Below, piece by piece: positions 1,587 through 23,529 of a stretch of DNA of 30,589 nt. Source of the stretch: Halomonas sp. (GTDB lineage Bacteria > Pseudomonadota > Gammaproteobacteria > Pseudomonadales > Halomonadaceae); NCBI GenBank assembly GCA_003560175.1, contig PWIZ01000062.1:1-30589 (forward strand). The letters run 5' to 3'. The notes beneath the pieces were generated by a model. The model had not been told where the DNA came from. It searched no databases and saw only the letters and a program-made list of their open reading frames with translations. Numbering within the stretch: the first letter of the stretch is position 1; the number at the start of each line of letters is the position of its first letter. A program made the position numbers and the translations under genes.

Positions 1587-2096
1587 CTACTCCTCCCGAA
1601 CCAGTTCCACATCGAAGGTGACGTCGATCTCCACGACGTTGTCATGGTCATGTTCCGTCATCATCGACTCCACGTAGGCCAGCGAAGTGGCAACACGCCC
1701 CTTGACCCGGCCGGTTTCGCCATCGAACTCCAGCACCTCGAGTTCGATGGGCACGTCCTCCTCGGTGCCGAAGTGCGGGGTCATTCCGCTCTCATGAAAG
1801 TAGGTCACCGAGGCGTTGCCAGGTTGCCCCTGCATCACCATGAAGCCGATGCTCAGCGTGCCCTGGGTCTCGAACTTCTCCTCCCGATGGCTCTGGATGG
1901 TAACGCTGAGCATGCCGGGCATCAGCTCGTGGTAGCTGGCCGTCGAGCCCTGGGAATGGGTGACGACATGCCACTCCCGCGGCTCGCCGTCCAGGGTGCC
2001 GCGGACCTCGCTGGCCATGGCCTGGCCAGCAGATAGTCCCAGGCCGGTCGCTATCAGGACACCGGTGATCATATGTCGGAGCTGCTTGGGTCTCAT
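1587..2096 (-). CDS. Exported protein of unknown function, last gene of the cluster
   Basis: A 169-residue protein with a clear Sec signal peptide: positive MRPKQLR, a hydrophobic core, and a probable cut after AMA at about residue 28. The mature part of about 141 residues is rich in alternating beta-type patterns and acidic residues and ends in a charged tail (VELVREE). I chose the ATG at 2096 because an AAGGA ribosome-binding site sits 7 bases upstream; a GTG ten codons earlier has no such support. The start lies 26 bases after the stop of the second giant VWA protein, so the two are probably co-transcribed. I do not recognise a family. It may be an accessory or partner of the VWA protein, which is inference from position only. 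Confidence 0.85.
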   Translation of the reverse strand: MRPKQLRHMITGVLIATGLGLSAGQAMASEVRGTLDGEPREWHVVTHSQGSTASYHELMPGMLSVTIQSHREEKFETQGTLSIGFMVMQGQPGNASVTYFHESGMTPHFGTEEDVPIELEVLEFDGETGRVKGRVATSLAYVESMMTEHDHDNVVEIDVTFDVELVREE

Positions 2097-2122
2097 TGTG
2101 CATTCCTTCTTCGGGTTGTTGT

Positions 2123-5100
2123 TCACTCCAGGCGGAGCTCGAGATGCCCACCAGGCATCACCTGGATTGTCTGTCGGTGCGCTTCCCCTTGCGTTTGCAC
2201 CACCAACTCATGCTCACCGACCGGCAGCGTGACGGCGTCACCGTCTACCCGGCCCGTCGCCAGTCTATCGCCATTGCCATCGAGGATATGCCACTCTGCG
2301 GCCAGCGCCGACGAGAGCCCCTCGACCAGCTCGCGATCGTTACGGCTGTCGAAATAGTCCCCTCCACCCAGCGTGGCCAGGCGGGCAAATTCACCCTGCA
2401 GCCCTGGGTCATCGATATGGAAGCCGACGATGTTAAGCCTGACATCGATGCCCTCCTCGGCCAGGGACGCTACGGCGGCCTCCAGATCGCCCTCGCAGGT
2501 CTCCTTGCCGTCGGTCAGCATCACCACCAGACGCGGCTGATCGGCAAACTCGGCCAGATCCCCCTGCACGGCCGCAAGCGAATCCGCCAGGGGGGTACGC
2601 GCCAGGTTGATGGCACGGATGTCATCCACCATCTGTCGTACCTCGTCATGATTGCCGATGGTGGGCTCGACCAGCAGCTCGGTGGCGCAGCTGTGTGGCT
2701 CGGTATGCCCGAACGCACGCAGCGCCACGGGGACATCCGTCGGGACGCGCTCATCGAGCACCTGGGTGACGATGCGGCGAGCCACCTCGATGCGGCGACC
2801 GCCCTCCATGGCTTGAAGCATTGAGCCCGAGGCGTCGAAGATCAGCTGAACCACTCCTGCCCCCATCACCGGTTCCTCGCCGCTGACCACGCGCAGGGTC
2901 CCCGGCTCCGGGGGCGCCTGCCAGCGCTGGGCCGCCGACAGCACATAGTCGGTGGGCCGGCGAAGTTTCCGCATGCTCGCCTCGAAGGCGGCAATCAGGT
3001 CATTGCGACCCGTAGCGTAGGCATAGTGCCCATCACCGCCCCTCGTCCAGGCATGCATCAGATCCTGGTACCAGCGAAGCTCATCGGGATCACGAACGCC
3101 ACCGTGACCCAGCGACATGGTGAAGATGCGCGGCTTGACCCTGGCCAGAGCCTCCCAGGCGCCGAGGTCACGGCCGACCTGCTCGGCATCGGTGATCAGG
3201 AAGATCACCTTCTCGCCATCGCGCTGCTCCAGGGCATGGCTGGCGAGGCGCAGCGAGGGTTCGGCGTCGGAATCGAAGTAGCGCATGTCGTAGTGCCCCA
3301 GCGCCATGGCCATCGCCGCCAGGGACTCGCCCCAGCCATCGATCAGCAGGGGGCCTCCCATAGCCATCAGATTGACCACCTCGCGGCCGGGACGAAGCCC
3401 TTCGGCGAAGCGCACCAGCGCCTGATGGATGGCTGGCTGGTGCCTGCCGACACTGCCGCTGCCGTCCCAGATGAAGACGATGGAGCGAGGGGGCTCGGCC
3501 AATGTCAGCCGGTATTCCCCCGGCGTGAGCCCCAACGCCTCTGCGCGACGCCCACCCGGCTCGGTGCGCCACTCAAGCGCCACTTCCTCGCCCTTGGGGT
3601 CGGTCAGGGTCGCGCTCAGCCTGCCCCGCAAGGTCTCCGCCAGGAAGAGTGACAGGGAGTTGTTGCCCTCCTCGAGGTGAATCGAATACGCCTCGCTCTC
3701 TCCCGGCGCCTCGAATCGGCCTTCGCCGAGACGCTCGCCTGCCGGCGGCGTTTCCAGACCGGCCAGCGCCTCGAATGAGCCGTCCTCAAGCTCGGCAGCC
3801 TCCCCCTTCAGGTGGGCCTCGAAGGGTCCCCGGTTATGATCGAGGCCCCAGTACGCCAGTATCGACTCCCCGCTCGCCAGATCGCTCGCCTCGATCGCCT
3901 GCAACCCCGCCGGAATTCGCCAACGGGAGTCGTGCTGCTCGGGATCGGCGGGCTCGTCAAACAAGAGCCGCAGGTAGCGCGCCCAGGGTGCATCCGCCAG
4001 GTCGAGGCGGGCCACACCCTCAGCATCACGCTCGAGTTTCCAGCTGGCCTGCTGCCGCCAGGGACCTACCGGGCCTTCTGTCGAGGTGTAGACCCGCACC
4101 CGCTCCACCGGGATGCCCTGCCAGTCGAGGTCGTCGATCCAGCGCAGTTCATCGATACGTGCCGCCCGCTGGTTGAGGAAGCCAAAGACCATCTCGATGT
4201 TGCGACCGCGGATGCGCTCGCCCTGGCGCACCTGGCTCTCGACCTGCCGGCCCTGGTTGCCCAGGGTGTGACGCTGCCCCACCAGGCCATGCAGGGAGCG
4301 CAGGTCCGGCAAGGTATAGAGCCAGTGGCCGCCATGGGCGGGGTCCAGCAGGTCGTGGCGACGTTCGGCCAGGACCTCAGCGGGATCGCCCAGGGCACGG
4401 AACATGCCGCTCCCGGTAATGGTCCCTCGCGGGGGTTCGCTGCCCCAGGTGGTGCGTGGCGTCAGCTGGACATAGCGTGCCCGCCGGGGCGCCTCGAGGG
4501 GGAACAGCTGCTCACCGTCCCGGGCATCGAGCTCCACCTCGATCAGCGGGGCGAGACTGTCCGGTGAGTCTCCCACGGCAACCTCCACATGGCGCCAGCG
4601 GTTGGCAACGGAGTGATAGGAGCGCTGGTTGAACAGCAGGGCGTGAACCTCGCCGCCCTCACCCGCCAGGCGGATCGGCGGCAGGGGATCGCCCCATTCG
4701 CGCCAGTGCAGGGCACTGGCCGAGCTCAGTCCGTCGAGCAGGGCACGCAACTCGCGATTGCGGACCTGCCAGCTTTCCCCCACGTCATCACCGCTGTCGG
4801 GATCGACAAAGGTGGCCCCCAGGCCCGCCCAGGCGAGATCTACCAACCCATGGTAGGCCTCGACCTCCGAGGGCCAGGGCTCGGGGGAGCGTGCTGTCGC
4901 CCCTCGCTCCACCGTGATGTCGTGCCGCGTGTCATGGTCACCGGCGCGCACGAAGAGACTGAGAGTCTCCCCTTCCGGCAATTCGGGAGGCGCCACCAGC
5001 GCCAGGGGCAGACGGCGGGCCTCGCCGGCTTCCAGGTGGACCGCCTCGGGCAGGCCCTCCAGCCTTGCCCCGCTGTGGCTCAGGTGAGCCTCCAGGGAAA

Positions 5101-7546
5101 GCCGCTGATCGACGGCCAACGGGTTCTCCAGCCGCAGGGAAAGGGGTGCGGTCTGGCCCTCGCCGACGAAGGCGGCCAGGAGTGAATCTTCATCCTCGAT
5201 AAAGATCGCAAGCGGCGGCGGTTCGGGCCTCGCCTCGTCGATGACCTCGACCACCTGGGTACCATGCCCGAAGGCCACCTTTATCAACATCTCCTCACCG
5301 GCCGGGAGCTGTGCGCGATAGTCCTGTCGCGCAGCCACCGTCTCGATGGGTATCGTTTCACCACCAGCGGTGCTCAAGGCGACCGACGTCATGCCGCCGC
5401 GCAGGACCGCTTCCGGGGTGACGACGTGCCCCAGCAGCCTGAGCTCACGCGGGGCATCGGCGGACGGCAGACGCAGGAACCCCGAGTCGACGGCCTCGCC
5501 CTGGAGCCCCCGACCGACCCGAGTACGCCTGGGGAGCAGGGGCGCCTGCTCGGGGGAATCGGCGGGCGTGGCACCATCGCTCAGGTCCCAGGGCGGGATC
5601 AGCTCGAGGCGTATCCGATAGTCGTCAGCGGCGGCCTGCTGGCCACGCAGCCAAAGCGTCATGTCGCCGGGCGACAGCCAGAAGGCGGCACTCGCCGCTT
5701 CACCCAGGGCACTCAGGGAGAGATGCTCGTTCTGGAGGCGGGTTTCACCTTCCCACTGCAGCCTGGCATCGGCCTGGCCCCCCTCCGGCGGGTCCAGGTG
5801 AAGCCTCGCCCGATTCCAGCCCGGCACACGAAACTGGAACATGTCGATGTCGTGGAGCCGATGAAATCCACCACGAATCTCCTCGCCCAGCCACAGCGGG
5901 TTGGCCTGGCGGAGCAGGTCGTTGGGCTCGATCTCGTGACCCGGCGACAGCGCCTCCCCCGGGCTGACGTTCAGGCGATAGTCGGTGTCGCTTCCGCTGA
6001 GCTTCACCAGGTAGCGGCCGGGGAGAAGCCGAAGGTGGTCGAGCCGCAGCGACTGGGCGTTACGCCCGCTGACGGCGAGCTCCCGATTCTCGCCCGGCCG
6101 CAGGGCGGCAAAGGTCAGGGTGTCCATCGCGAGGTCTGCCGGCCGGTAGAGGGCCAGGTTGGAGAGGCGCTTGCCGTCCTCAGCGGTCGCCTCGAGTTGC
6201 CACTGCTGCACCTCGGGTCCGACCGTGAAGGCGAACCAGGCATCTCCCTCATCGGCAAAATGCCCCTGACGCGGCTCTCCCGGCGCGATGGGGTAGGCCC
6301 AGCCGGCAGCCTCGTTGGGCCGATCGACCCAGCCTTCTGGGGGCACGCTGCCCTCGCTCAGCGACAGCCTCGCCGGGAAGGGGTCCTCCCGGTGCGGCGG
6401 GACCAGCTCTATCCGGTAGTCACCGGCCGGCAGTTGCAGGTTTCGAAACAGATCGGGGCCAGGCCCCAGCCGACACGCCTGATCGTCACGTCGGTCATCG
6501 ACCCAGCAGAGGCTGACAGGCTCATCCGCATCGCTGGCGAGGCCCAGCGATAGCGGCAGCGAGGCTTCCGGCACCCGAAAGGCAAGGCGCTCGCGTGAGC
6601 CAGGCTGCAGGGTCAGGTCGACGGGCTCGCCCACCTCCACCCAGGCAGGTGGTGCCTGGGGTTCCGCCTCACGAGGCCGGCGACGGCCATCTTCCTCGAG
6701 CCTGAGCAGGACTCGCCCGGCCGGCACCCCTTCCGGCTGACGCACCTGCAGCCTGGCCCCTGGTTCCAGGGCCTGGCGGCCAAACCTTGCTGCGCTGCCT
6801 GTTTCGGCGGGCCCCGATACCCGCTCACCCTCGGCATCGGTCAGCCAGATATCGAGTGGCGACCCCAGTTCGCTACTGGCGGTGACGGCCCAGAGCAGAT
6901 CCTCGCTCTCTTCCTCTAGCGCCAGGGGCAGGGAAGCCTCGGCGCCATCCAGGTGGTAGAGCCAGTCACGCCCGGGGAGCACGGCCTGGGGTTCACTGTC
7001 GCCGGAAAGGCGCTCATGGAGGGTGAGCGGTGCCTCGCGTGACAGGACCAACTGATAGGCTCCCCCTCCCTCCTGACCGGCAAGGCGGATCAGGTAGTCA
7101 CCGCCGGGGATCAGCAGGCCCTCTTCCACAACCAGCGGATGTTGAGGGAAAGCCGAAAGTGCCAGCAGCGGCACCGGGGCCGGTTCGAGGCTTTCGGGCT
7201 CGGCCACGCTGCCGAAGGTGGCGATACCGGCCTGGGCCTTAGGCTGTATGGAGAAAGGCTCGACTTCCAGACTGACACCCGCGCCGTCATCGACCAGCAG
7301 CTCGACCCGCCACAGATGATCGACATCGTCATCGTCGAGACGCCAGCGGAACAGGTCGAGATCCTCACCCCAAACCTCGCCGATCAGGCGCGCTTCACCA
7401 CGAAATGCATGGGCGGTGTCCGGCGTATCATTCGACTCTTGCTCCAATGTCAGCCGGGGAAAGGCCTGAACTTGCTGTAATCCCGGCAAACCCGGTCCAC
7501 ACCAGAACAGCAGGGCTACGCCTGCCAGCACCCTTCCCATCGCCAT
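2123..7546 (-). CDS. Giant secreted protein with two VWA domains (paralog A)
   Basis: An 1807-residue exported protein with a signal peptide probably cut after VQA (residue 28). The N-terminal two thirds looks like a chain of beta-sandwich modules. Several resemble bacterial pre-peptidase C-terminal (PPC) domains, with ESNDTPDTA...DLDLFRW near residue 35 and EPNDLLRQA...DIDMFQF near 540. Residues about 917-1220 hold two discoidin/F5-8C-like jelly-roll regions ending in RYVQL and RYLRL. VWA domain 1 begins near 1355 with the metal-site motif DGSGS. VWA domain 2 begins near 1565 with DASGS, then TPLADS and LTDGKETC, including two conserved cysteines (HSCATEL, ETCEGD) that probably form a disulfide. 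A short beta domain closes the protein. I chose the ATG at 7546, preceded by GGAGGG, over the TTG at 7567. It is closely paralogous to the protein at 18103-23529. VWA domains usually mediate metal-dependent protein binding; the ligand here is unknown. Confidence 0.9.
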   Translation of the reverse strand: MAMGRVLAGVALLFWCGPGLPGLQQVQAFPRLTLEQESNDTPDTAHAFRGEARLIGEVWGEDLDLFRWRLDDDDVDHLWRVELLVDDGAGVSLEVEPFSIQPKAQAGIATFGSVAEPESLEPAPVPLLALSAFPQHPLVVEEGLLIPGGDYLIRLAGQEGGGAYQLVLSREAPLTLHERLSGDSEPQAVLPGRDWLYHLDGAEASLPLALEEESEDLLWAVTASSELGSPLDIWLTDAEGERVSGPAETGSAARFGRQALEPGARLQVRQPEGVPAGRVLLRLEEDGRRRPREAEPQAPPAWVEVGEPVDLTLQPGSRERLAFRVPEASLPLSLGLASDADEPVSLCWVDDRRDDQACRLGPGPDLFRNLQLPAGDYRIELVPPHREDPFPARLSLSEGSVPPEGWVDRPNEAAGWAYPIAPGEPRQGHFADEGDAWFAFTVGPEVQQWQLEATAEDGKRLSNLALYRPADLAMDTLTFAALRPGENRELAVSGRNAQSLRLDHLRLLPGRYLVKLSGSDTDYRLNVSPGEALSPGHEIEPNDLLRQANPLWLGEEIRGGFHRLHDIDMFQFRVPGWNRARLHLDPPEGGQADARLQWEGETRLQNEHLSLSALGEAASAAFWLSPGDMTLWLRGQQAAADDYRIRLELIPPWDLSDGATPADSPEQAPLLPRRTRVGRGLQGEAVDSGFLRLPSADAPRELRLLGHVVTPEAVLRGGMTSVALSTAGGETIPIETVAARQDYRAQLPAGEEMLIKVAFGHGTQVVEVIDEARPEPPPLAIFIEDEDSLLAAFVGEGQTAPLSLRLENPLAVDQRLSLEAHLSHSGARLEGLPEAVHLEAGEARRLPLALVAPPELPEGETLSLFVRAGDHDTRHDITVERGATARSPEPWPSEVEAYHGLVDLAWAGLGATFVDPDSGDDVGESWQVRNRELRALLDGLSSASALHWREWGDPLPPIRLAGEGGEVHALLFNQRSYHSVANRWRHVEVAVGDSPDSLAPLIEVELDARDGEQLFPLEAPRRARYVQLTPRTTWGSEPPRGTITGSGMFRALGDPAEVLAERRHDLLDPAHGGHWLYTLPDLRSLHGLVGQRHTLGNQGRQVESQVRQGERIRGRNIEMVFGFLNQRAARIDELRWIDDLDWQGIPVERVRVYTSTEGPVGPWRQQASWKLERDAEGVARLDLADAPWARYLRLLFDEPADPEQHDSRWRIPAGLQAIEASDLASGESILAYWGLDHNRGPFEAHLKGEAAELEDGSFEALAGLETPPAGERLGEGRFEAPGESEAYSIHLEEGNNSLSLFLAETLRGRLSATLTDPKGEEVALEWRTEPGGRRAEALGLTPGEYRLTLAEPPRSIVFIWDGSGSVGRHQPAIHQALVRFAEGLRPGREVVNLMAMGGPLLIDGWGESLAAMAMALGHYDMRYFDSDAEPSLRLASHALEQRDGEKVIFLITDAEQVGRDLGAWEALARVKPRIFTMSLGHGGVRDPDELRWYQDLMHAWTRGGDGHYAYATGRNDLIAAFEASMRKLRRPTDYVLSAAQRWQAPPEPGTLRVVSGEEPVMGAGVVQLIFDASGSMLQAMEGGRRIEVARRIVTQVLDERVPTDVPVALRAFGHTEPHSCATELLVEPTIGNHDEVRQMVDDIRAINLARTPLADSLAAVQGDLAEFADQPRLVVMLTDGKETCEGDLEAAVASLAEEGIDVRLNIVGFHIDDPGLQGEFARLATLGGGDYFDSRNDRELVEGLSSALAAEWHILDGNGDRLATGRVDGDAVTLPVGEHELVVQTQGEAHRQTIQVMPGGHLELRLE

Positions 7547-7655
7547 CCCGCCTACCCTCCCTGGCAACTATCTAACCTTCTATCGGACTTGCCGCATCCC
7601 GGGCTCACGCGCCTGGACTGTCAAACACCCCGACCACCGCAGCCGGGGAATCCGA

Positions 7656-8285
7656 TCAGCGAGCGGCCTGGTCGCGCACGGCATCCAGATCCCAGGCCTT
7701 GAGCAGTTCCACGGCGGGCGCCTCGGATTCCAGTCCCTGGCCGTTGACCTGCACCAGGATGCGACCATCCATCAGGAAGGACACTTCGGCGTTGCCCCGC
7801 TCGGCTTCCCACTTGAGCAGCGCTGAGTCACGGCCGATGCGGATACGCTCCATATTGGGTTGAGCGGCGATCATCGCCGGATTGCTGAACATCGCCGACA
7901 TCGCCTGAATCATGGGATTGTCGATCATCAGCTTCGCCGTCAACCTGCCATTTCCCGACTCCTGGCGATACTCGCGTTCCAGCATGCTGCCACCGCCGCC
8001 GAACATCGCCGCGGCACCGCCGCCACCCCCGGCGGACTCCACCGTGCCGGCGCTCCAACCTTCGGGCGCCTCGGGGAAGGTCTCGGCGATGCGTCCGGTC
8101 ATCAACTTGCGAATATCGTTGATCGCGAACTCCAGCTCGGTGATGGCCGCGCCGTATTCCTGCTCCTGATACAGTTCCAGGCCCAGCTCGACCTGCTCGA
8201 CCACCTCGTCGGCCAAGGCCGCGGTGACCGGCAGCGTCAATGCCACGCTCATCAGGGCGACACCCAGGGTGCGCTTGCTTTGCAT
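7656..8285 (-). CDS. Exported protein of unknown function with glycine-rich loop
   Basis: A 209-residue protein with a signal peptide cut probably after ALA at residue 25. After it comes a helical, TPR-like segment (about 26-65: ELYQEQEYGAAITELEFAI), then a conserved-looking FPEAPEGW, a glycine-rich run at about 84-100, and a beta-rich C-terminal half. The pattern resembles small proteobacterial periplasmic proteins that I know only as hypothetical. The start at 8285 has GAGGAG upstream; the longer open frame to 8426 lacks a credible site and would bury the signal peptide. It lies 55 bases after the lipoprotein gene and 109 bases before the giant VWA gene, in the same direction. Function unknown. 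Confidence 0.85.
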   Translation of the reverse strand: MQSKRTLGVALMSVALTLPVTAALADEVVEQVELGLELYQEQEYGAAITELEFAINDIRKLMTGRIAETFPEAPEGWSAGTVESAGGGGGAAAMFGGGGSMLEREYRQESGNGRLTAKLMIDNPMIQAMSAMFSNPAMIAAQPNMERIRIGRDSALLKWEAERGNAEVSFLMDGRILVQVNGQGLESEAPAVELLKAWDLDAVRDQAAR

Positions 8286-8340
8286 CGTTGTTCTCCTCGT
8301 TCTCATCGGTTTGCAGACGGCAACCGGACAGGTCACCAAC

Positions 8341-9354
8341 TCATTCCTCTTCCAGCGTGAACCAGCGCAATTCCCCGGCCAGCTCAATGTCATCCTCGCC
8401 GCTGGCGGCGATGTTGATCTCGGCATCGTAACGCTCGCCGTTGGCTGCCAGCGTCAATTCACCGCTGATTTCCTCGACCTCATGGCGGGTGAATCTGGCA
8501 CGCACGCTGTCTTCATCACGGCTCCCCCGGATCGGATAGCTTCCCGCCGCCACAGCCGAGGGCAGGGTGAGATAGATGCCATTACCAATGATCAGGGTGT
8601 TATCGTGATTGCTGATACGGGCAAGGCTGGATTCGGTTTCGCCGTTGACGGTCAAGTCATATTCCGCCTCGGCCTGCAGCGTCAACGCCAGATCTCTGAC
8701 GGCCCCATCGCTGTGCACGCGGCTGGCATCTTCACCGCGTCCATCAGCGGCTTCGAACTGCCAGGCGGCGGTGACACTGTCGCCCAGGGCGTCCAGATAG
8801 ATGCTGCCCGACACCTGGTGCGCGAAGGTCCAGGCCATGCCGTCACCGCGGACATGGGCCTGCGTCTGGTCGTCCTCGGCATCGGCAAAGCTCGCCACCG
8901 CGTAGCGATTGCCCGCCGCGGCGCCCTTGGGCAATACCAGGGTCGCCCAGGCACGCACGACATTATCCGGCTGGTCCTGGTGAGTGGCATCGGTGTAGAT
9001 CGTGATGGCGTAGGGTCCCTCGGCATTGCTGCCACGACGGGAGGCGCCACCGCCCAGGGAAGGCCGGAAGATATCGTGACTGACCCCGCCATAGCGCGGA
9101 TCATTCGCCGTGGTGTATTCGCCGGTGGATGTGACGCTGTCGCTGAGAGAGAGCATGGATTCGCCGCTTTCCAGGCCCTCCAGCAGGTCGGCAAACTCAC
9201 CTCCTCTTCCAGGCGGTGCTGCCGCTTGCGACAACACGTCATCGCTTTGTTCGGCACTGGAACCGGAGTCGTCACCACATGCCGTCAACAATCCCAGGCC
9301 GACAAGCGTCAGGCTTGCCAGCCTTATGCCTTGGTGTTGTGTTGTTATCCTCAT
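8341..9354 (-). CDS. Secreted lipoprotein of unknown function
   Basis: A 337-residue lipoprotein. The N-terminus has a short basic region, a hydrophobic core and the lipobox LTAC with Cys26 as the lipidation site, followed by GDDSGSS, a flexible acidic linker usual in outer-membrane-directed lipoproteins. The rest is beta-rich, acidic and without motifs I recognise; the last 90 residues (EEISGELTL...AEINIAASG) look like a small beta-sandwich. I chose the ATG at 9354 because it places the lipobox normally and has AAGG six bases upstream; an ATG eight codons earlier is possible. It follows the membrane-protein gene by 67 bases and precedes the 209-residue exported protein by 55, so it probably belongs to the same operon. 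Confidence 0.87.
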   Translation of the reverse strand: MRITTQHQGIRLASLTLVGLGLLTACGDDSGSSAEQSDDVLSQAAAPPGRGGEFADLLEGLESGESMLSLSDSVTSTGEYTTANDPRYGGVSHDIFRPSLGGGASRRGSNAEGPYAITIYTDATHQDQPDNVVRAWATLVLPKGAAAGNRYAVASFADAEDDQTQAHVRGDGMAWTFAHQVSGSIYLDALGDSVTAAWQFEAADGRGEDASRVHSDGAVRDLALTLQAEAEYDLTVNGETESSLARISNHDNTLIIGNGIYLTLPSAVAAGSYPIRGSRDEDSVRARFTRHEVEEISGELTLAANGERYDAEINIAASGEDDIELAGELRWFTLEEE

Positions 9355-9421
9355 AACCCACCTTGCTGCCTTGTCCATGTCAATCTTGCCTTCCCAGCGA
9401 CTTGTCCAACGAGACACGCGG

Positions 9422-10402
9422 TCACTGAGTCACTTCCGTGCCTTGCACATCGCTGCCAGTCGTTTGCCGAGTGGCACGCTGCTTGAGCCTGCGGAACTTC
9501 TTGGACATGCCATCTAGCTTGGCTTCCCATGCGGGATCGGGCCGTTGTCCCTCGATGGTCGTGAAATAGGCCTGCATCAGGCAGGTAACGGCGAAGGGCT
9601 CGAGCAGGGCCACCTTGACGCTCCAGGCAAACAGTAGCGCCACGATCACCCCGCTGGCGGACCATCCACCGGGAATCAGATAGACCACCAGCGCCGCCGG
9701 GGCCAGCATGATCAGGAACACCACAAAGGAGAGGCCATAGACGATCAGCGCCAGCCAGGCGGCGTTCTTGAGCATCGGCTTGGCATTCTGGCCGTACAGC
9801 ACGAGCGCATCACGGGACGAGGCCCAGGCGTTGTCGGAGCGGATGCGAATGCAATACGCCAGGATCACCTCATCGATGAATCCCACGGCGATCTTCAGAA
9901 AGGCCTCGAGAAGACGAATGAACTGCCGCGCGCCGGGAATCGGCAGCAAACCGAAGATCCCGCGCATGAGACCGGTGATGGTGCGCAGCACCCCCTTGAT
10001 CAGCTGGTCGACACCGAACAGCAGGCTGGCCTGGCCGAAACGCGCCTTGACGACCGTCTTGGCATGGGCGATCTGACCGCGCCCCTCGGGCAAGGTCTGA
10101 CCCTCGAGCAGTTCCACCAGCACGGCGATATGGCCCGCCTTGACGATATACAGCAGGTACTCGCGCATCACATACATCACGGCACCGACGATGCCGAAAC
10201 CCACGACCCCGCCCCAGAAGGTAGAGGCGGCACGAAAGCCCTCGTCACCGAAGCCACCGATCCCCCAGCCCACCCCGGCACCTGCCCCTGTCATCAGCAC
10301 GTAGGCCAGAGCCACGCCAAAATAGACGGCCAGGCGGAAGAGAATGAAAGGCATTGTCTTGAGCATCAGGCCCAAGGCCTGGCCGATCTTGAAATCCCAC
10401 AT
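9422..10402 (-). CDS. Multi-pass inner-membrane protein of unknown function
   Basis: A 326-residue protein with about six hydrophobic segments: near residues 12-40, 60-95, 130-150, 170-190, 225-255 and 265-290. These are followed by a basic, hydrophilic C-terminal tail of some 40 residues (KKFRRLKQR) expected to face the cytoplasm. There is no cleavable signal peptide. The ATG at 10402 follows AGGGGG by five bases; the extra 16 residues of the longer frame are unlikely. It is the first gene of the unit that ends with VWA paralog A. The 144-base gap upstream carries the 23-bp element shared with the other VWA operon. It is the only clearly integral membrane protein of the cluster, so it may anchor or export other members, which is inference. 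Confidence 0.88.
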   Translation of the reverse strand: MWDFKIGQALGLMLKTMPFILFRLAVYFGVALAYVLMTGAGAGVGWGIGGFGDEGFRAASTFWGGVVGFGIVGAVMYVMREYLLYIVKAGHIAVLVELLEGQTLPEGRGQIAHAKTVVKARFGQASLLFGVDQLIKGVLRTITGLMRGIFGLLPIPGARQFIRLLEAFLKIAVGFIDEVILAYCIRIRSDNAWASSRDALVLYGQNAKPMLKNAAWLALIVYGLSFVVFLIMLAPAALVVYLIPGGWSASGVIVALLFAWSVKVALLEPFAVTCLMQAYFTTIEGQRPDPAWEAKLDGMSKKFRRLKQRATRQTTGSDVQGTEVTQ

Positions 10403-10460
10403 AGATCCCCCTGCTGAGTGATAGTGGTTGTCAAATGCTGGTGCATTCAATTCTGTTGAT

Positions 10461-10510: not shown

Positions 10511-10546
10511 GCGGAAAGCTGCCATTCGCGCCGACAGTCGCCGCGA

Positions 10547-11704: not shown

Positions 11705-12475
11705 TCAAGCTCCCAGGCCGAGACCAAATTCCAGCTCTACAACCTGATGAAACGACCGTGTCTCGGGTAACATCACCTCGAGGGTGACATCGCTCCGACC
11801 TCCGACCACCACCAGATTGGTCTCGGGGTGCGAAGGCTCGGGCGTTTCGTCCTGGTCAGGGGCAGTGATGCCCAGCAAGGACCCTCCCCGCAGGAAGCAG
11901 AAGAGCTCAAGCGGCTGATCTTCGGGTCGTTCTCGGCGGTCATCGCGACACGTCATGGTCTGGCCATCCACGTCGATATCCACCCCCCAGCCCGGGACAT
12001 CACTGAAATCGACGTTCGCTATCTCCACGCGGCGAACGTCGTCACTGGCGAGGAAAAGGTCCAGCTCCAGCTCCATGCGGATCGAGGTCGCCTCCCGATG
12101 CGGTACGTCCGGGGAAAATACCGGAACTCGCAGCCAGCCTTCTTCAGCATTGGCATTGACCTGGTGATCCATCAAGAAGCCCCTTTCGGCAGGGTCGAAA
12201 CCAAATAGCGCTTGTGGTGACCCCTCTATTTCCAACAGGTTATTTCCCTGATCATCCGTGAGCGAGACAACCCTCGCCTCATCTCCCAGGCTGGCAATAC
12301 GGGGCAATGCAATCCACAGATCGACCATCATATGCTTGTGCTCGGCATCGGTCGGAGTGGTGGGTTGGGAGATCATCAACCGTTCGACTCGCACATCCGC
12401 TGCCTCCGCCAGTGCTACGCTGGCGGAGAGTGCCAACAAGCTTCCCGCTGCAAGATTCGTGATCTGCTTTCGCAT
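11705..12475 (-). CDS. Exported protein of unknown function
   Basis: A 256-residue protein with a standard signal peptide (MRKQITN, hydrophobic core, cut near ALA-EAA around residues 24-26). The mature part is acidic and beta-rich, with two cysteines (TMTCRDD and LELFCFL) likely to pair in the periplasm. No family is recognised. The ATG at 12475 follows GGAGGAG by six bases and is preferred to an ATG five codons upstream that lies within that ribosome-binding site. A 143-base gap separates it from the upstream gene, so it may start its own transcription unit together with the WD40-like protein. No convincing sigma-70 promoter was found in that gap; a TTGACC lies there without a good -10 partner. 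Confidence 0.85.
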   Translation of the reverse strand: MRKQITNLAAGSLLALSASVALAEAADVRVERLMISQPTTPTDAEHKHMMVDLWIALPRIASLGDEARVVSLTDDQGNNLLEIEGSPQALFGFDPAERGFLMDHQVNANAEEGWLRVPVFSPDVPHREATSIRMELELDLFLASDDVRRVEIANVDFSDVPGWGVDIDVDGQTMTCRDDRRERPEDQPLELFCFLRGGSLLGITAPDQDETPEPSHPETNLVVVGGRSDVTLEVMLPETRSFHQVVELEFGLGLGA

Positions 12476-12618
12476 GTACGTCTCCTCCATATTTTGCTGT
12501 CACCATCACCGGTCGCTTCCAGACTCGCCTAGTGAATGGCGTCGTTTTCAACGGTCAAATTATTGATTAAAGATGAGCATTCAGACCATGATTCACACGA
12601 TCGTCAGCCTGTCCCTGC

Positions 12619-16514: not shown

Positions 16515-16629
16515 CACCCACCTCCAGCGTCCAATTCTCACGGGGCCAAGCTTCAAGGCCTTGCAGTGCTCCCCACTCTGCTTCTCCACGACACACTCGA
16601 CTTCACTCAAGTACCGCTGCCGTGGACCA

Positions 16630-17025
16630 TCAGAAGGCGCCCAGCGCCGCCTCGGCGACGGGGCTGAAATCCGGGTCACCGTGATCCCTGACACGCCTCA
16701 GGAAATCAACCCAGTCGGCTTCGGCCTGGGGATCTCGGGCAAGCCAGCCGAGCCGGGCCGTCATTACGTTGGCCAATGCGTCCGGCGGGAAGGGAGCATG
16801 CCAACCGGAAGCTGGCTGGAAAATAACCGGCTCAAGAATGCCGATAAGTCCATCCACGATGTTGTACTCGAGGGCGGCCAGGGCGCCACCGCCGCGGTTG
16901 CTCATGAAGTGGTCACCGATGTGCGCAAAATCGGCCACGGGATTGACCAGAATCCGCCCCATTTCACGGGACGCTAGCTCGCGAGTCGGCGAGCGTTCCA
17001 ACCCCGGCGTCAGGCCCGAGCTCAT
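16630..17025 (-). CDS. Small orphan protein inside the exported-protein operon
   Basis: A 131-residue predicted protein without a signal peptide, unlike its neighbours. It is predicted mostly helical, with a hydrophobic middle (ALEYNIVDGLIGILEPVIF) and an acidic C-terminus. No family is recognised. The ATG at 17025 has only a weak upstream site, and a second ATG at 16962 is possible. The reading frame has biased, gene-like codon use and no overlapping alternative on this strand, so I think it is real. It follows the helical-repeat protein by 16 bases, or by 8 if that gene is frameshifted near its end as discussed separately, and precedes the transglutaminase-like gene by 115 bases. Confidence 0.65.
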   Translation of the reverse strand: MSSGLTPGLERSPTRELASREMGRILVNPVADFAHIGDHFMSNRGGGALAALEYNIVDGLIGILEPVIFQPASGWHAPFPPDALANVMTARLGWLARDPQAEADWVDFLRRVRDHGDPDFSPVAEAALGAF

Positions 17026-17041
17026 CAGGACGCCTACTGTC

Positions 17042-18106
17042 TTACCAATTCGGAGGTGTCGTCCCGCTCCAGGGCGGACCCAGAGTCATTGCCGGGGGTG
17101 TCCGGGGGTGACGCTGCTGGTGCCTAACCAGACGCTGGAGACCGACCAGTCGATGATCGTCGCTTTGGCCCTGCTCGAGCAGTGACGCCATGGCTGCGAT
17201 AAAGCGGCTCCTGGCCACCTCTGCCAAGGGCGAGGTGTCGGGACCGGCAGCACCGTTGGAAAGTTCTCTTGCGAAATTTTCCATGAGATTGGCCAGGTGA
17301 GCCGACGCCGGCCGGGATATCTCGTCGCGCAGGGCATCCCGGGTGCCGATATCCGCCAGCGCTGCCAGCACCTCTCCGGGGTTCTCCTTCGCCAGACCGG
17401 CATGGTCACGCACATAGGCAAGCCAGCTGGCATCATCGACAACGTCAAGCTCACCCATCTGCGAAAGGAAGAAGCGGCTCGCGGTCGCGCCATGCTCCTG
17501 ATGAAAGAGTGCCTCGGCGAGGGAATGCAGGACCATCTCGGGCAGCACCTCGGTGGCCATCAAGCGTGCCGCATGGGCGCCATCCTCATCCGCCAGGGCG
17601 AGCATATCCGCAGGCAGGGTAGCCTCATCAATACCCATTTCCACGGCACCGAGAACCAGGTGTCGATAGATGGACGAATGCTCACTGAACGCCGGATCAA
17701 GGATCGCCTCTCGCAACAACGCCTCGGCCTCCGGAGCCTGCATTGCGAAAAGGGTCTTAAGTGCCGCCACCCGCACTCGATCGAGCTGGCGCGGTGCCAG
17801 GCCTTCGGTGTCGCCCTGTTCAAACACATAGCGCACCGCATCCCGAGCCGGCAGAGCATCGACGCCAATTTCCTGCAGCCGCTCAAGCGCGAGAATCCGC
17901 TTAAGCCGAGAAGGCTCGATCAGCGCCTCGGCATGTTCCATGGCTGTCTTGCCGCGATAGGTGGCATCCGCCTGGTGTTCCGGCAACGGTTGGCGGGCCA
18001 TGGCATCCGGGTCCGGAGCGGCGACCGAGAGGGGGCTGGTTAGTGCCATCCCCATCAACAGCACCACGAGTAGTGGTCGAGAGATCAGGCAGAGGCGCTT
18101 GGTCAT
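17042..18106 (-). CDS. Exported helical-repeat (HEAT-like) protein
   Basis: A 354-residue exported protein with a signal peptide cut probably after VAA near residue 30. The mature region is almost entirely alpha-helical, with repeated amphipathic helix pairs (ILALERLQEIG, VRVAALKTLFAMQ, YRHLVLGAVEMG, AARLMATEVLPEM) in the manner of HEAT or armadillo repeats, a fold that usually supports protein contacts. The start ATG at 18106 overlaps the TGA of VWA paralog B, so translation is coupled and a physical partnership with the VWA protein is plausible. The last 20 or so codons (ending GTTPPNW) have weak third-position GC compared with another frame, which suggests a frameshift close to the C-terminus. 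Confidence 0.87.
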   Translation of the reverse strand: MTKRLCLISRPLLVVLLMGMALTSPLSVAAPDPDAMARQPLPEHQADATYRGKTAMEHAEALIEPSRLKRILALERLQEIGVDALPARDAVRYVFEQGDTEGLAPRQLDRVRVAALKTLFAMQAPEAEALLREAILDPAFSEHSSIYRHLVLGAVEMGIDEATLPADMLALADEDGAHAARLMATEVLPEMVLHSLAEALFHQEHGATASRFFLSQMGELDVVDDASWLAYVRDHAGLAKENPGEVLAALADIGTRDALRDEISRPASAHLANLMENFARELSNGAAGPDTSPLAEVARSRFIAAMASLLEQGQSDDHRLVGLQRLVRHQQRHPRTPPAMTLGPPWSGTTPPNW

Positions 18107-21100
18107 GGGGATGGCTCCGAAAGGGCGTCGCTCAAGCGGATTTGCTTGGCCTGGCGCGGCGCGAGGCTGAAAGTGTGATCGCGATCGCCCTCCTGGGCCT
18201 CCACCACCAGGGTGTAATCGCCGACCTCGAGTTCAATGGCCTCGCCATCGACACGCCCACGGGCAACGGTGCTGCCGGACGCATCCCGCACCCGCCAGGG
18301 TGCCGCCAGGGCGCCAGCCAGGCCCTCAACCAGTTCATCACCATCGTGGCTGTCGAAGTATTCGCCGCCACCCAGCTCGGCGAAACGCTCGAACTCGGCC
18401 TGCAGACCAATCTCGTCGATATGGAAGCCGACGATATTCAGGCGTACGTCGAGGCCTTCCTCTACCAGGTCCGCCACCGACTGCTCCAGGTCGCCCTCGC
18501 AAGTCTCCTCGCCATCGGTGAGCATCACCACCAAGCGGCGCTGTCCCTCGTAATCTGCCAGGTCATCGAACACGGCATCCAAGGAATCGGCCAGCGGAGT
18601 GCGCGCCAGGTTGATGGCCTGAAGGTCCTCGACGGCACGCTGCACCTGGGCATGATTGTCGTCACTGGGAGGGACCAGCAACTCGGTGGCACAGCTGTGT
18701 GGCTCGGTATGACCGAAGGCACGCAGCGCCACCGGCACGTTCTCGGGAATCCGCTCGTCGAGTACCTGCTGCACGATGCGACGCGCCACCTGGATCCGTC
18801 GCCCACCTTCCATCTGGCGCAGCATGGAGCCGGAGGCGTCGAAGATGAGGTGTACGACACCCGCGGCAACCACCGGTTGATCGCCACTGGCCACCCAAAG
18901 GCTGCCCGGTTCCGGGGGCTCCTGATAGCGGCGATCGACGTCGAGGGCAAAGGTGGTGGGCTGGCGCAGCTCACGCATGCCCGCCTCGAAGGCGCGAACC
19001 AGGTCACTGCGCCCCGTGGCGTAGCGATAGTTGCCACCGCCCACCTGCGCCCAGCTGAGCATCTGGTCCTGATACCAGCGGTACTCTGCGGTCTCGTTCC
19101 TTCCGCCATGGGCAATCTCGAGGGTAAAGATCCTCGGCCGGACAGTCTCGAGGTCATTCCATACCGACATGTCACGACCCAGTTGCTCGGCATCGGTGAT
19201 CAGGAAGATCGCCTTCTCGCCCGCCTGGCTCGCCAGGGCACGGGTGGCACGTTTCAAGGCCGGCTCGGAATCGGAACTGGAGAAGCGGCCACTGTAGCCA
19301 TTCAGGGTCTGGGCCACCTGACTGGGCGACTCGGCCCAGCCATCGATCAGCAGGGGGCCACCCAGCGGCAGCATGTTGAACACTTCTCGCCCGGGCTGAA
19401 GCCCCTCGGCAAAACGATTCAATGCTTGATAGATGGCCGGCTGGTGACTGGCCACGCTGCCACTGCCGTCCCACAGGAAAACCACTGAACGGGGTGGTTC
19501 GGCAACGGCAAGTCGGTATGTGCCCGGCTCGAGATCCACTGCTTCTGCCACGCGCTTGCCGCCTTCGACATCCCGCCAGGTTAGCGGGACCGCGCTGCCT
19601 TCGGGGTCCGTGAGGCTCGCCTCAAGCCTCCCGCGCATTGACTCCTGCAGCGCGAACGCCAGGGTATTGTCACCTTCCTCCAGCTCGATAAGGTAATGAC
19701 GCGAGTCCAACGGCTCCTCAACCCTGCCGGTGATTAGCGACTCCAGCATCAGCGGCTGGCCAGCATGGCTATCGGTGTCCTCGACGTCGGCCAATACCAG
19801 TTCGTCGGCGGACTGCTCGGCCTCCAGTGGTCCACGGGAGTGGTCCATGCCCCAGTGGCCGAGAATCGAGCGCCGGCTGGCCAAGGTGTCGGCCTCGAAG
19901 GCACGCAGCCCCTTGGGGATACGCCAGTTGGCCCTGCGCTCCCCCTCGGGAATCTCGGGCTCGTCGAAAACCAGCTTCAGGTAGCGCACCCGAGGGGAAT
20001 CGGGGAGTGACAGGCTGGCCACGCCGTCGGCGTCTCGCGCCAGCTCCCAATCAGGCTGGGTTTCCCAGGGACCCACCGGGCTCTCGGTGGCGGTATAGAC
20101 CCTCACCCGCTCCACGGGCAGGCCTTCCCAGTCGAGGTTCTCGACCCACTCGAGCTCGTCGATACGTGCCGCGCGCTGATGCAGAAAGGCAAAGACCATC
20201 TCGATGCGGCGACCCCGTATTCGCTCCCCGCGTTGGGCCTCGCCCATGACGCCTCTCGCTGTAGAGCGCTGCCCCTGGAGGCCATACAAGGAAGAGTGAT
20301 CAGGGCGCGTATAGACCCAGTGGCCACCCAGCGAAGAGTCAAGCAGATCATGGCGCCGTTGGGCCACTTGGCCTGTCGGCTCACCCAGCACGCGCAGCAG
20401 GCCGCTGCCATGGGTCCGACGGCGGGCCTCTTCATGGTCCCAGACGCCAAGGGGCCGCAGCTGAATATAGCGTGCTTCACGGGGTGACTCGAACTCGAAG
20501 AACTGCTCGCCGTCGCCGGAAGCGAGCGTCAAGGTCTCCACCACCTCGAGCGCGTCGTGGCTGTCCCCCAGGGCAATCTCCACTTCTCGCCAGCGATCGC
20601 CGTGATCGTGACTGGAGCGCTGATTGAAAACGATGCCGCGAACCAGCCCGCCCTGGTCGGCCAGGCGTATCGGCGGCAGTGCCTGCCCCAGGTCGCTTGA
20701 CACCTCGATCGAGCTGCCAGCGCCGGCCATGCCATCGATGAGGAAGTCGGGATGACTCCTCCCTCGCCCCGGCAAGGAATCGATGGGGTCGCCGCTGCGG
20801 GCATCGACGAAGGTGGCACCCAGGGCATTCCAGGCCAGGTCGGTCAGCCCCTGCAACGACGCGGGCACATCCGGCACGGTGAAGGGATCCACCGCCGGCG
20901 CCAGAGGATCCAGCGCCAGGTCCTTGTGCAGCACCTGATCACCGGCCCGCACGAACAGCGACAGCGGCGCACTCTCCAGCATGTTGGGCGGCAGTGTCCA
21001 GGTCAGCGGCAGTTCTGTCCCCTCTCCCGCCGCGAGCTCGATCTCCGCCGGCAGCCCGGCTATCGAGGCGCCGTCATGGCTGATATGGGCCTCCAGTGTC

Positions 21101-23529
21101 ACTCTCTGGGGTTCGTCTTCGGGATTCGCCAGGCTGAGGGACGAGGCGAGACGCTGGCCCGTGGGTGCAAAGGGAGGCAGGCGCTGGGCTTGCGTTGCCA
21201 GGTTCAGTTCGAGTTGCGGCGGTGCCGGCAACGGGTAGGCCGGGTCCGAGAGTGTCACGTCCCGGCCAGCGCGTCCGAAGGAGACCTCAAGCGTCGTCGC
21301 TTCGCCTGCCGGTATCGTGACGACATGGCGACCGCGCCCTTCGGCATCCCGCATCTCCAACACGTCTCCGACATCGGTGCGGAACTCGAGGCCGGTATAG
21401 GCACTACCCAGTGAATCGACACGACCTTCGAGATAGACATCCCGATCGCCCCTGGTCACCGGCAGGCGAAGAAAGCCACCGCTGCCGCTTGCCCCCGCCA
21501 TAGCACTGCTGATGACGGCATCTTCTGGCAGCAGCGGTGCTTCTTCACGGCGTAGGGCCGGAGCGGGCATGTCCACATGGGACCAAGGGTCGGCGATGGT
21601 AACGCGAGTGCTATAGCGGGCCAGAGACGCCTCGTCACCCTCAAGCACCAGCACATAGTCTCCCGGTGGCAGTACCGGATCCAGCTGTAGGCTTTCTCCC
21701 ACATCCGAGTGCCTGAACCATGTCTCGCCCTGCCACTCCAGCCGCACGTCCATCTCGCCACCATTGGGCGGTTCCACTTCCATCAGGACCCGGTTGCGAC
21801 CCGGTAGGTGGAAGTGAAAGCGGTCCTGGTCACGCGAGGAATGGAAGGAACCCTGGACCGTTTCCCCCAGCCAGAGGGGATTGGCATCACGGTCTTCATC
21901 ATTGGGCTCCTGCTCGACACCCGGTTCGGGCTGGCCGGTCGGCGCAGCGAGAAGCCGATAGCCCCTCGCTTCACCCATCAAGCGCACCAGGTAGCGCCCC
22001 GGCAACAGCCGAACGTGCTCAAGCCAGGGGTGGCTGCCACCCCTGGGACGTTGGTGCGCCAATATCAGTGAGTCGTCCCCGGCATGGTAGAGCTCCAGTC
22101 GCTCCAATGGGTCCTCACCCTCGGTGGTAAAGGCCCACTGCTGGACTTGGTCGCCGACCTGCAGCTCGAACCATGCCTCACCGCTCCCTTCGAAGCGGCC
22201 ATGGATTGGCACATCCGCCAGCAGCGGCAGTGCCCATTCGCGGATATCATTGGGCCGATCGACCCAGCCGTCTGGCACCGGCTCATCTTCGTCAAGGCGC
22301 AGGGTAAAGGTTACTGGCTCGTCGCCACTAGCGCGGCTTCGCAGCATCAACGCGTAGTCACCTTCGGGCAGTGACATCCGAGAAAACAGGGTATCGCTCA
22401 GACCGATACGACAGACATCATGACGGGTGCCGATCGGTTTCAGGCAGACCTCCAATTCTTGCGTCATATCATCTGCTATGGCACCCAGCGTCCATGCCGT
22501 CTGGCCCGATCCAATACGGAAGCCCAGGTAGCGTCGGTCGTTACGCTCGATCGTCAGCGAGATCGTTTCCCCGGCGTCGAGCCAGTGGCGCGACTCGGGA
22601 GAGCCGGCGAACTGCACTTCCTTTTCTGCCACATCCTCAGCCACGTCCTCAGGCGTCTCATCAGTGACGGTCGGCTCCTCCGGGCGTATTCCGTCTTCGC
22701 GAACACTGGCCCCCAGGCGACCGATGGCCTCGCCATGGGCATGACGCAAGTGCAACCGACTCCCCTCGGGCAGATCGAGCCGGCCCCAGTTTTGTTGCAG
22801 GGGGGATCCTTCGGCGGCCTCGACGATGACCTCGCCATCTGCGTCTGTGATCCAGGCCTCGAGCGACGCCCCCAGCTCACCAACAAGAGCCAATCGCCAA
22901 AGCTGGCGGGAATCACCCTCAAGGATGAGCGGGATTGTGACGTCGGGCACGTTAAGCTGAAAAAACCATTGCCGACCCGATTCGACAGAGATGTTATCGG
23001 CATCGTCAGGCCCCACGGTGCCGCGGATATTGATTCGGTCGCCGGTGGTCAGGGTCAATCGATACTCACCGCCTGTCTCTTGGGTCAGAAAGCGGATCAG
23101 GTGCTCTCCCGGTGGCACGATGACGGCTGCCGGTTGAGCTTGGTCACGGCGCGGGGAAGCCTGGAGGGTCAGCAGGGTAGTTTCTTCACTGGCCTCGGCT
23201 TGCGGTTCGGCACCGAAAGTGGCAACGCCCGAGGTGCTGGCCGCTTGCTCGCCGGGCCAGAAGAGTTCGGCATCCAGGCTAGCCTCGCCATCACCCTGCA
23301 GTTCCAGATGCCACAGCCGGTCGGTTTCATTGTCATCCAGTACCCACCGGAAAAAGTCGCGATCATTTCCCGACACCTCGCCCACGAGGCGGGCTTGACC
23401 ACGGAACGTCTGCGCCTGCTCCGGTGTATCGTTTGGCGCCTGCTCGAAAACCATCCTGGGGAAGGCAAATGCACTGCCAGCCAAAAGCAGAGCCAGCATA
23501 CTGGCGACTGATGTAACCGTAGTTCTCAT
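18103..23529 (-). CDS. Giant secreted protein with two VWA domains (paralog B)
   Basis: An 1808-residue exported protein with a signal peptide cut after AFA (residue 22) and the mature start FPRMVFEQ, nearly the same as paralog A (FPRLTLEQ). The architecture matches module for module: PPC-like sandwiches (APNDTPEQA near 30, EPNDEDRDANPLWLGE near 540), two discoidin-like regions, VWA 1 from about 1347 (LWDGSGS) and VWA 2 from about 1558 (FDASGS, TPLADS, LTDGEETC). The HSCATELLV and TCEGDLE cysteine motifs are conserved. The C-terminal beta tail differs most between the two. It is the first gene of the minus-strand cluster and carries the shared 23-bp element 60 bases upstream. VWA 2 resembles the domain of bacterial Ca-activated-chloride-channel-like VWA proteins. 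It is probably a large extracellular or periplasmic adhesion or assembly protein; the ligand is unknown. Confidence 0.91.
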   Translation of the reverse strand: MRTTVTSVASMLALLLAGSAFAFPRMVFEQAPNDTPEQAQTFRGQARLVGEVSGNDRDFFRWVLDDNETDRLWHLELQGDGEASLDAELFWPGEQAASTSGVATFGAEPQAEASEETTLLTLQASPRRDQAQPAAVIVPPGEHLIRFLTQETGGEYRLTLTTGDRINIRGTVGPDDADNISVESGRQWFFQLNVPDVTIPLILEGDSRQLWRLALVGELGASLEAWITDADGEVIVEAAEGSPLQQNWGRLDLPEGSRLHLRHAHGEAIGRLGASVREDGIRPEEPTVTDETPEDVAEDVAEKEVQFAGSPESRHWLDAGETISLTIERNDRRYLGFRIGSGQTAWTLGAIADDMTQELEVCLKPIGTRHDVCRIGLSDTLFSRMSLPEGDYALMLRSRASGDEPVTFTLRLDEDEPVPDGWVDRPNDIREWALPLLADVPIHGRFEGSGEAWFELQVGDQVQQWAFTTEGEDPLERLELYHAGDDSLILAHQRPRGGSHPWLEHVRLLPGRYLVRLMGEARGYRLLAAPTGQPEPGVEQEPNDEDRDANPLWLGETVQGSFHSSRDQDRFHFHLPGRNRVLMEVEPPNGGEMDVRLEWQGETWFRHSDVGESLQLDPVLPPGDYVLVLEGDEASLARYSTRVTIADPWSHVDMPAPALRREEAPLLPEDAVISSAMAGASGSGGFLRLPVTRGDRDVYLEGRVDSLGSAYTGLEFRTDVGDVLEMRDAEGRGRHVVTIPAGEATTLEVSFGRAGRDVTLSDPAYPLPAPPQLELNLATQAQRLPPFAPTGQRLASSLSLANPEDEPQRVTLEAHISHDGASIAGLPAEIELAAGEGTELPLTWTLPPNMLESAPLSLFVRAGDQVLHKDLALDPLAPAVDPFTVPDVPASLQGLTDLAWNALGATFVDARSGDPIDSLPGRGRSHPDFLIDGMAGAGSSIEVSSDLGQALPPIRLADQGGLVRGIVFNQRSSHDHGDRWREVEIALGDSHDALEVVETLTLASGDGEQFFEFESPREARYIQLRPLGVWDHEEARRRTHGSGLLRVLGEPTGQVAQRRHDLLDSSLGGHWVYTRPDHSSLYGLQGQRSTARGVMGEAQRGERIRGRRIEMVFAFLHQRAARIDELEWVENLDWEGLPVERVRVYTATESPVGPWETQPDWELARDADGVASLSLPDSPRVRYLKLVFDEPEIPEGERRANWRIPKGLRAFEADTLASRRSILGHWGMDHSRGPLEAEQSADELVLADVEDTDSHAGQPLMLESLITGRVEEPLDSRHYLIELEEGDNTLAFALQESMRGRLEASLTDPEGSAVPLTWRDVEGGKRVAEAVDLEPGTYRLAVAEPPRSVVFLWDGSGSVASHQPAIYQALNRFAEGLQPGREVFNMLPLGGPLLIDGWAESPSQVAQTLNGYSGRFSSSDSEPALKRATRALASQAGEKAIFLITDAEQLGRDMSVWNDLETVRPRIFTLEIAHGGRNETAEYRWYQDQMLSWAQVGGGNYRYATGRSDLVRAFEAGMRELRQPTTFALDVDRRYQEPPEPGSLWVASGDQPVVAAGVVHLIFDASGSMLRQMEGGRRIQVARRIVQQVLDERIPENVPVALRAFGHTEPHSCATELLVPPSDDNHAQVQRAVEDLQAINLARTPLADSLDAVFDDLADYEGQRRLVVMLTDGEETCEGDLEQSVADLVEEGLDVRLNIVGFHIDEIGLQAEFERFAELGGGEYFDSHDGDELVEGLAGALAAPWRVRDASGSTVARGRVDGEAIELEVGDYTLVVEAQEGDRDHTFSLAPRQAKQIRLSDALSEPSP

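Follow-up and report, generated by a model that had tools for sequence, protein, structure and literature searches.

Do the genes that fill some 22 kb of a Halomonas sp. contig encode one dedicated extracytoplasmic system, or does a smaller unit lie among genes that also occur without it? The window, that is, the whole stretch of 30,589 nucleotides analysed here (GenBank assembly GCA_003560175.1, contig PWIZ01000062.1, our contig C177), comes from a genome of 2.63 Mb in 439 contigs that is 72% complete. The initial annotation described twelve genes, almost all encoding exported proteins, bracketed by two giant VWA paralogs and forming an assembly without a known name. An unnamed core is real, but it comprises two to four genes, not twelve. 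The 22-kb stretch can be read, with roughly even chances of being right, as a mosaic in which an exported core complex of L (with its paralog B), I and H, joined by K/J in Halomonas-type genomes, lies beside the resident genes F, E and C. Single letters A to L denote genes of the window, G-numbers survey genomes, and L followed by digits fetched loci. The core genes and the paralog B are:

L, 18103..23529, minus strand: giant Sec-exported protein of 1808 amino acids (aa), with two stretches matching Pfam VWA_2 (51.5 bits).
K, 17042..18106, minus strand: N-terminal part of an exported protein of ~612 aa, its frame broken in the window.
J, 16630..17025, minus strand: residues 474-612 of the K protein (its C-terminal end), read in a different frame.
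I, 14058..16694, minus strand: exported transglutaminase-like protein, with Ser172 in the cysteine column and a conserved C-terminal domain of the WWxxDPxTG type.
H, 12619..14067, minus strand: exported protein homologous to the N-termini of some distant L-type proteins.
B, 2123..7567, minus strand: second giant VWA protein and L paralog, with two Pfam VWA stretches.

A survey of 58 genomes, including the window's own, found full-type L in three of them (the window, G005 and G025); eight more matched the last VWA domain only. K/J was found in three of the 58 genomes, H likewise, and these were the same three that carry full-type L. The nearest named relative with the locus is Billgrantia montanilacus (NZ_QPII01000014.1, taken as G005), in which the genes are ordered L-K/J-I-H. 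G025 is fragmented: I is seen there on a single contig (C104), next to the tail of an L-type gene that precedes it, and other contigs carry L-K/J-L and L-L. K/J is a single reading frame of 612 aa in both relatives. The window sequence matches this protein in three pieces (residues 1-260, 296-386 and 474-612), with the rest missing and the frame changed. J is therefore the C-terminal part of K, and the proposed count of twelve genes drops to eleven, including one that is either broken or wrongly assembled. The break (16630-18106) reflects either a true pseudogene or an assembly fault in a metagenome-assembled genome (MAG). The HEAT-like helices suggested for K came down to one weak match (HEAT_PBS, E value 0.11), and the full-length G005 relative gave no Pfam match.

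Outside the genus it is I and L that are found together. A scan of genome contigs gave five loci, namely those of B. montanilacus, a 3994-base Halomonas MAG contig, an alphaproteobacterium, a Caldilineaceae MAG and a Gemmatales MAG, the last (L029) with a short match only. In the uncultured alphaproteobacterial MAG (L028) and the Caldilineaceae MAG (L030, Chloroflexota) the L-type gene is immediately preceded by an I-type gene, and on a plasmid of Indioceanicola profundi (Azospirillaceae) an I-type gene overlaps the giant VWA gene by 4 base pairs. Among 369 gammaproteobacterial genomes the L profile matched six, three of them with full-type L (the window, G356 and G361); the I profile matched 21, with strong full-length matches in exactly the same three. 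The I gene lies directly before L in both G356 and G361. At most two candidates per genome were scored in the L and I surveys, and these counts may be too low. In all, five further genomes beyond the genus have I before L (Indioceanicola, L028, L030, G356 and G361), and in all eight genomes with full-type L that were examined the I-type gene is found either beside L or with only K/J between them. Surveys of 301 genomes around the Caldilineaceae MAG and of 289 around the alphaproteobacterium matched only the starting genome.

An origin from a phage or a plasmid was considered and rejected. A search of phages gave one record, matching the last VWA domain only. A search of plasmids gave 72 records; of the 20 listed, Indioceanicola is the one long match, and the other 19 are confined to the last VWA domain.

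Sequence comparison places H in the core as well, as a part fused to L elsewhere, in three of the five distant genomes. Indioceanicola, L028 and G356 have L-type proteins with mutually homologous N-termini (32-52% identity, E value 5e-33 or better). H matched the Indioceanicola N-terminus by BLASTP with an E value of 2e-7 (1e-6 in a small database), and an hhalign comparison of the H profile, built from three copies, with the three N-termini jointly gave a probability of 96.8 and an E value of 2.5e-10 over 374 columns. Against single N-termini the probability was 94.0 for Indioceanicola and 75.4 for L028. Four other exported window proteins and the N-terminus of the window L, used as controls, gave probabilities of 0.2 or lower; the four proteins were run as single sequences against the three-row target, at a depth unlike that of the H profile. 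No H-like part was found in the L N-termini of G361 and L030.

The members of this core do not diverge at the same rate. Between the window and G005, the core region of L is 81% identical, E 82% and J 85%, compared with 40% for I and about 55% for H (window 12619-16694 against L020:5044-9013). L itself is 90-93% identical in the last 300 residues and 68-79% in the first 500. In G025, identity is only 30% for the H copy and 28% for the I copy. A role of I in specificity or recognition would be in keeping with a binding head that is conserved and a partner that changes fast, though paralogy between the two I genes may also account for the difference. The distances of I and L are correlated across genomes: r is 0.72 when the near relative G005 is left out, a value reached by 4 of 720 permutations, and the correlation weakens when G005 is included (r 0.58, 199 of 5040). 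With genomes so few, this lends weak support to shared inheritance.

The remaining genes of the cluster are:

G, 11705..12490, minus strand: small exported protein, accessory, with no Pfam family.
F, 10547..11632, minus strand: exported WD40-type protein, resident gene (WD40 31.6 bits, cut-off 27).
E, 9422..10450, minus strand: multi-pass membrane protein with five hydrophobic segments, resident gene.
D, 8341..9417, minus strand: lipoprotein, accessory, with the lipobox read by eye.
C, 7656..8426, minus strand: small exported protein, resident gene, its true start probably downstream.
A, 1587..2126, minus strand: small exported protein; its family is present in 10 of 58 genomes, most of which lack full-type L.

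The same-strand run of exported genes proposed for the stretch was borne out. All open reading frames (ORFs) of the cluster, which spans 23529 to 1587, are on the minus strand, and they encode ten exported proteins and one that crosses the membrane several times. In B, C, F, G, H, I, K and L, computation placed a hydrophobic segment close to the N-terminus; the lipobox of D (LTAC) and the signal-like start of A were read by eye, both falling below the hydropathy cut-off, and the five segments of E were found by the same hydropathy computation. In C and I the segment begins 50-60 residues in, and the true starts are therefore probably further downstream. Several junctions are tight, with overlaps of 4 base pairs at L/K, 10 at I/H and 4 at B/A, and a gap of 4 at E/D. 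The flanking genes are on the plus strand, with g01, an ABC transporter ATPase, on one side and g03-g07 on the other (molybdopterin-oxidoreductase-like protein, histidine kinase, LuxR-type response regulator, nucleoid-associated protein and diguanylate cyclase). Of the two VWA paralogs said to bracket the run, B is not outermost: A lies beyond it. A Pfam scan of 19 window ORFs gave no match to MoxR or DUF58, in agreement with the reported absence of the MoxR and DUF58 partners, and no RNA families or tRNAs were found in the window.

Another genome of the genus, without the VWA genes, shows what the locus looks like in their absence. In G007, which is 99% complete in two contigs and has no L match, the ABC transporter genes are followed by C, E, F, a gene for an OmpA-domain protein and g03-g07. 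L-K/J-I-H-G sit where G007 has just the OmpA-domain gene, and F, E and C belong to the locus because they are present at the same spot in G007 without VWA genes. F adjoins E without VWA genes in G031 also. Strong matches to E were found in seven of the 58 genomes, the window's own included, in addition to one very weak match, and four of the seven lack full-type L. A-like genes occur in 10 of the 58, seven of them without full-type L, and in G005 the A-like gene is on another contig. D and G were sought within the fetched loci, where they were seen outside the window only in G025 (67% and 51% identity, respectively) and gave no match in the G005 locus.

C is found directly upstream of I in G356, and the possibility that the two are constant partners was considered. 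Of the 369 gammaproteobacterial genomes, 22 have C-like genes; full-type L accompanies them in the window and G356, and the other 20 are without it. In the 12 neighbourhoods examined from these 20 genomes, tblastn gave no match to I or L, and a constant partnership was rejected. The C family consists of exported proteins of ~200 aa, and no common neighbour was noticed in these 12 loci (L115-L126); the window copy has no Pfam match. In G191 a C-like gene is accompanied by a match confined to the PPC part.

Thus the set can be called extracytoplasmic, but one dedicated system of twelve genes was rejected, since F-E-C, A and the C family occur without VWA genes or full-type L. Recurrence of the genes together fails for F, E, C and A and holds for L, K/J, I and H. 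The same division bears on the simplest rival explanation, a neighbourhood effect in which unrelated exported genes are adjacent by chance and have no common function. It is true of much of the set, as shown by the occurrence of F, E, C and A without full-type L and the coming and going of D and G. For L, K/J, I and H, however, it fails in view of the presence of L, K/J and H in the same three of 58 genomes, of I+L in five distant genomes and of the H-like part fused to L, and we regard it as unlikely.

L and B are indeed giant VWA paralogs, as proposed. Each has ~1810 aa, they are 49% identical over nearly the full length, and each has two VWA stretches above the Pfam cut-off (PF13519, 51.5 bits for L and 43 bits for B against a cut-off of 27); the VWA folds of L and B and the WD40 fold of F were thus all assigned above threshold. 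The N-terminal half of L is PPC-like and rich in beta structure; it is followed by an Ig-like segment, two CBM32/discoidin-like parts, a second PPC-like part and the tandem VWA pair, whose metal sites are at residues 1354 and 1564. The DxSxS motif, the next S/T and the D are invariant in both VWA domains of all seven aligned sequences, where the S/T column of the first VWA domain was our choice and the metal-site match is one of sequence only. The discoidin-like assignment is sub-threshold in Pfam (F5/8C, 12.3 bits for L and 26.5 for the Indioceanicola protein against a cut-off of 28.2), but relatives of L and searches by profile and by fold back it, the L profile matching F5/8C-CBM32-type structures with an E value of 3.5e-5. 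An AlphaFold2 model of the C-terminal 929 aa of L had a mean predicted local distance difference test score (pLDDT) of 73.8 and a predicted template modelling score (pTM) of 0.40. Profile and fold matches of L include the tandem VWA protein PTMP1, CBM32-type proteins, BatB, ITIH and pilus VWA proteins, and the rows of the VIA-align comparison mostly probe the last VWA domain, so a fold missing from them may still be present in L.

L-type proteins vary in number and form. G025 has at least three giant L-type copies, some of them in tandem (contigs C104, C460, C434 and C58, fetched as L016, L022, L023 and L004), pointing to copy-number expansion. In the Caldilineaceae L-type protein (L030:9890-15222) a frame change splits the protein between its two VWA domains. 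G002 has a VWA protein of 666 aa with repeated units (L047:13936-15936) between the ABC transporter and C, in the position that B/A occupies in the window. G216 and G058 encode tandem-VWA relatives of 1127 and 1137 aa (L054:6067-9450 and L055:6920-10333), which align with L across the two VWA domains and in which discoidin-like and PPC-like parts were recognized by eye.

The partner of L, protein I, had been called transglutaminase-like, and here too Pfam remains below threshold while relatives and profile searches support the assignment. Against Transglut_core (PF01841), the one Pfam family listed for I, the window copy scored 18.4 bits and two other copies of I 19.4 and 21.8 bits, with a cut-off of 23, whereas a homolog from a family of ~1000-aa proteins (L084) scored 64.3 bits; this family has the transglutaminase-like core and the C-terminal domain in common with I. 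The cysteine column was placed through the homolog by an alignment with the structure 3isr (E value 2e-5; 0.03 in a second alignment), in which the cysteine of the 3isr motif GVCRD aligns with the serine of GNSLD in the homolog. In seven copies of I this column holds S, H, A, A, A, A and S, and in the G025 fragment H, so that no catalytic cysteine was found in any of the eight copies read. The His and Asp columns are retained in six of seven; in the Caldilineaceae copy they hold Y and H, and all three triad residues are gone. By these alignments, I is a transglutaminase-like protein without the nucleophile of the enzyme.

This loss bears on two enzymatic readings of I. In the first, the chief rival on grounds of analogy, I and L would be a pair like LapG and LapA: I, a cysteine protease of transglutaminase-like type in the periplasm, would cut the giant VWA adhesin L or set it free. 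A transglutaminase-like protein beside a giant VWA protein would by analogy be the same kind of pairing, and according to PMC13090378 the fold of LapG-type proteases is transglutaminase-like and a VWA domain is present in the adhesin DvhA. However, LapG and DvhG retain the C-H-D triad according to the same source, and the cysteine is missing from every copy of I read. The RTX repeat pattern had no matches in L and B, both of which have a hydrophobic Sec-type N-terminus, and I has no listed Pfam family besides Transglut_core. This reading fails because the cysteine is missing in I and the RTX pattern in L, and we hold it to be improbable.

In the second, I would modify L enzymatically by means of a different nucleophile, with cross-linking as one example. 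Conservation of His and Asp in six of seven copies is in its favor, as is a weak match of the I profile, in the His/Asp part, to a protein-glutamine gamma-glutamyltransferase (6g49, E value 0.04). The nucleophile column, however, varies among S, H and A instead of holding one conserved residue, and in L030 the His and Asp are themselves replaced by Y and H, which leaves this reading with little likelihood. An anti-phage or conflict system using VWA, comparable to MoxR-VWA or ternary systems, is very improbable: VWA domain and transglutaminase-like both turn up as terms in two papers on bacterial conflict or immunity systems and I diverges fast (40% against 81% for L between the window and G005), but PADLOC gave no families at an E value of 0.01 for six cluster proteins, no MoxR or AAA match was found in the cluster ORFs scanned, and the parts are exported.

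Proteins related to I are more widespread than the pair. The search with I found transglutaminase-like domains, Cys-less in the stretches read, in 18 further gammaproteobacterial genomes of the 369, and nine regions from eight of these genomes were examined. Five regions hold stand-alone homologs of ~1000 aa, and in four of these a large secreted-type beta-domain protein (826-2056 aa) adjoins or is one small ORF away, the fifth locus being a contig of 5.4 kb. In three other loci the transglutaminase-like domain is within a long reading frame of 1211-2050 aa. In L084, L085 and L087-L091, Cys-less transglutaminase-like proteins were seen beside, or fused into, large beta-domain proteins of secreted type or RHS-like proteins. 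We know of no agreed role for Cys-less transglutaminase-like domains.

Returning to the stretch as a mosaic with an exported core, its composition, the co-occurrence of its genes, the H-like fusion to L, the lost cysteine and the kept VWA metal-site residues come directly from the sequences compared. L would be, we infer, a metal-dependent binding protein of the periplasm or cell surface. Its tandem VWA domains could grip a ligand via divalent cations, the CBM32-like parts may grip glycans, and the PPC and beta parts might form a stalk. I could bind L or the growing complex via its degenerate transglutaminase fold, and would then act as a non-enzymatic scaffold, specificity or maturation partner, not as a cross-linker or protease. 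The likely output would be adhesion or the assembly of envelope or matrix. The further proposal that I and L are an undescribed two-protein extracytoplasmic system found in two phyla, with a giant tandem-VWA binding protein served by a dedicated partner, a transglutaminase pseudoenzyme that evolves fast, is put forward tentatively, with chances somewhat below even.

Several observations weigh against these proposals. The I+L pair is very rare and patchy, and two of the distant loci are MAG contigs with labels as deposited. Some relatives of L are without I, since the G216 and G058 loci with short tandem-VWA proteins carry no I gene. The H profile against the G356 N-terminus alone gave a probability of 0.4, and G356 is linked via two homologs only. 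The structure model of I (pLDDT 48) was too poor for a structure search, so the fold of I rests on sequence, and the model of L has the low pTM given above. No outer-membrane route for L was seen.

Comparison with known systems gives partial likenesses. The best solved match to L, by profile and by Foldseek, is PTMP1 of the mussel byssus (4cn8/4cn9), which like L has two adjacent VWA domains with metal sites; unlike L it is eukaryotic, and the shared fold shows no function. To our knowledge PTMP1 has neither PPC or CBM32 parts nor partner genes. BatA/BatB-type and MoxR-associated VWA proteins have the VWA fold of L (BatB, 3ibs), but L is a large exported multidomain protein, and its window has no MoxR or DUF58 in the ORFs scanned. 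The short proteins of G216 and G058 share the alignable VWA pair of L and, as judged by eye, its discoidin-like and PPC-like parts, but differ in their length (1127 and 1137 aa) and in having no I gene. The ~1000-aa Cys-less proteins resemble I in the transglutaminase-like core, the C-terminal domain and the large beta-domain neighbour, but where L has tandem VWA, these neighbours carry CarboxypepD_reg, MG2, He_PIG, PKD or toroid domains. LapA/LapG and DvhA/DvhG likewise combine a giant adhesin-type protein, with VWA in DvhA, and a transglutaminase-like partner (PMC13090378), but I has no cysteine and L has a Sec-type N-terminus and no RTX pattern. Judged by titles and the openings of abstracts, no description of the I+L pair was found in the literature searched in full text for its domains, which did not cover most subscription journals. 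A study of M. album lists a changed transglutaminase-like protein, with no link to L. The component parts are familiar, and it is the pairing and the spread of I and L that appear to be undescribed.

If the two-protein proposal is true, I+L would represent the VWA members of a broader class, that of Cys-less transglutaminase-like proteins beside or fused into giant beta-domain or RHS-type proteins, and such Cys-less proteins would perhaps be folding, display or specificity factors. The 'twelve-gene system' is reduced to a core small enough for searches and deletions, and the occurrence of a compact, recurring I+L pair in a named species, Billgrantia montanilacus, makes the role of Cys-less transglutaminase-like domains testable.

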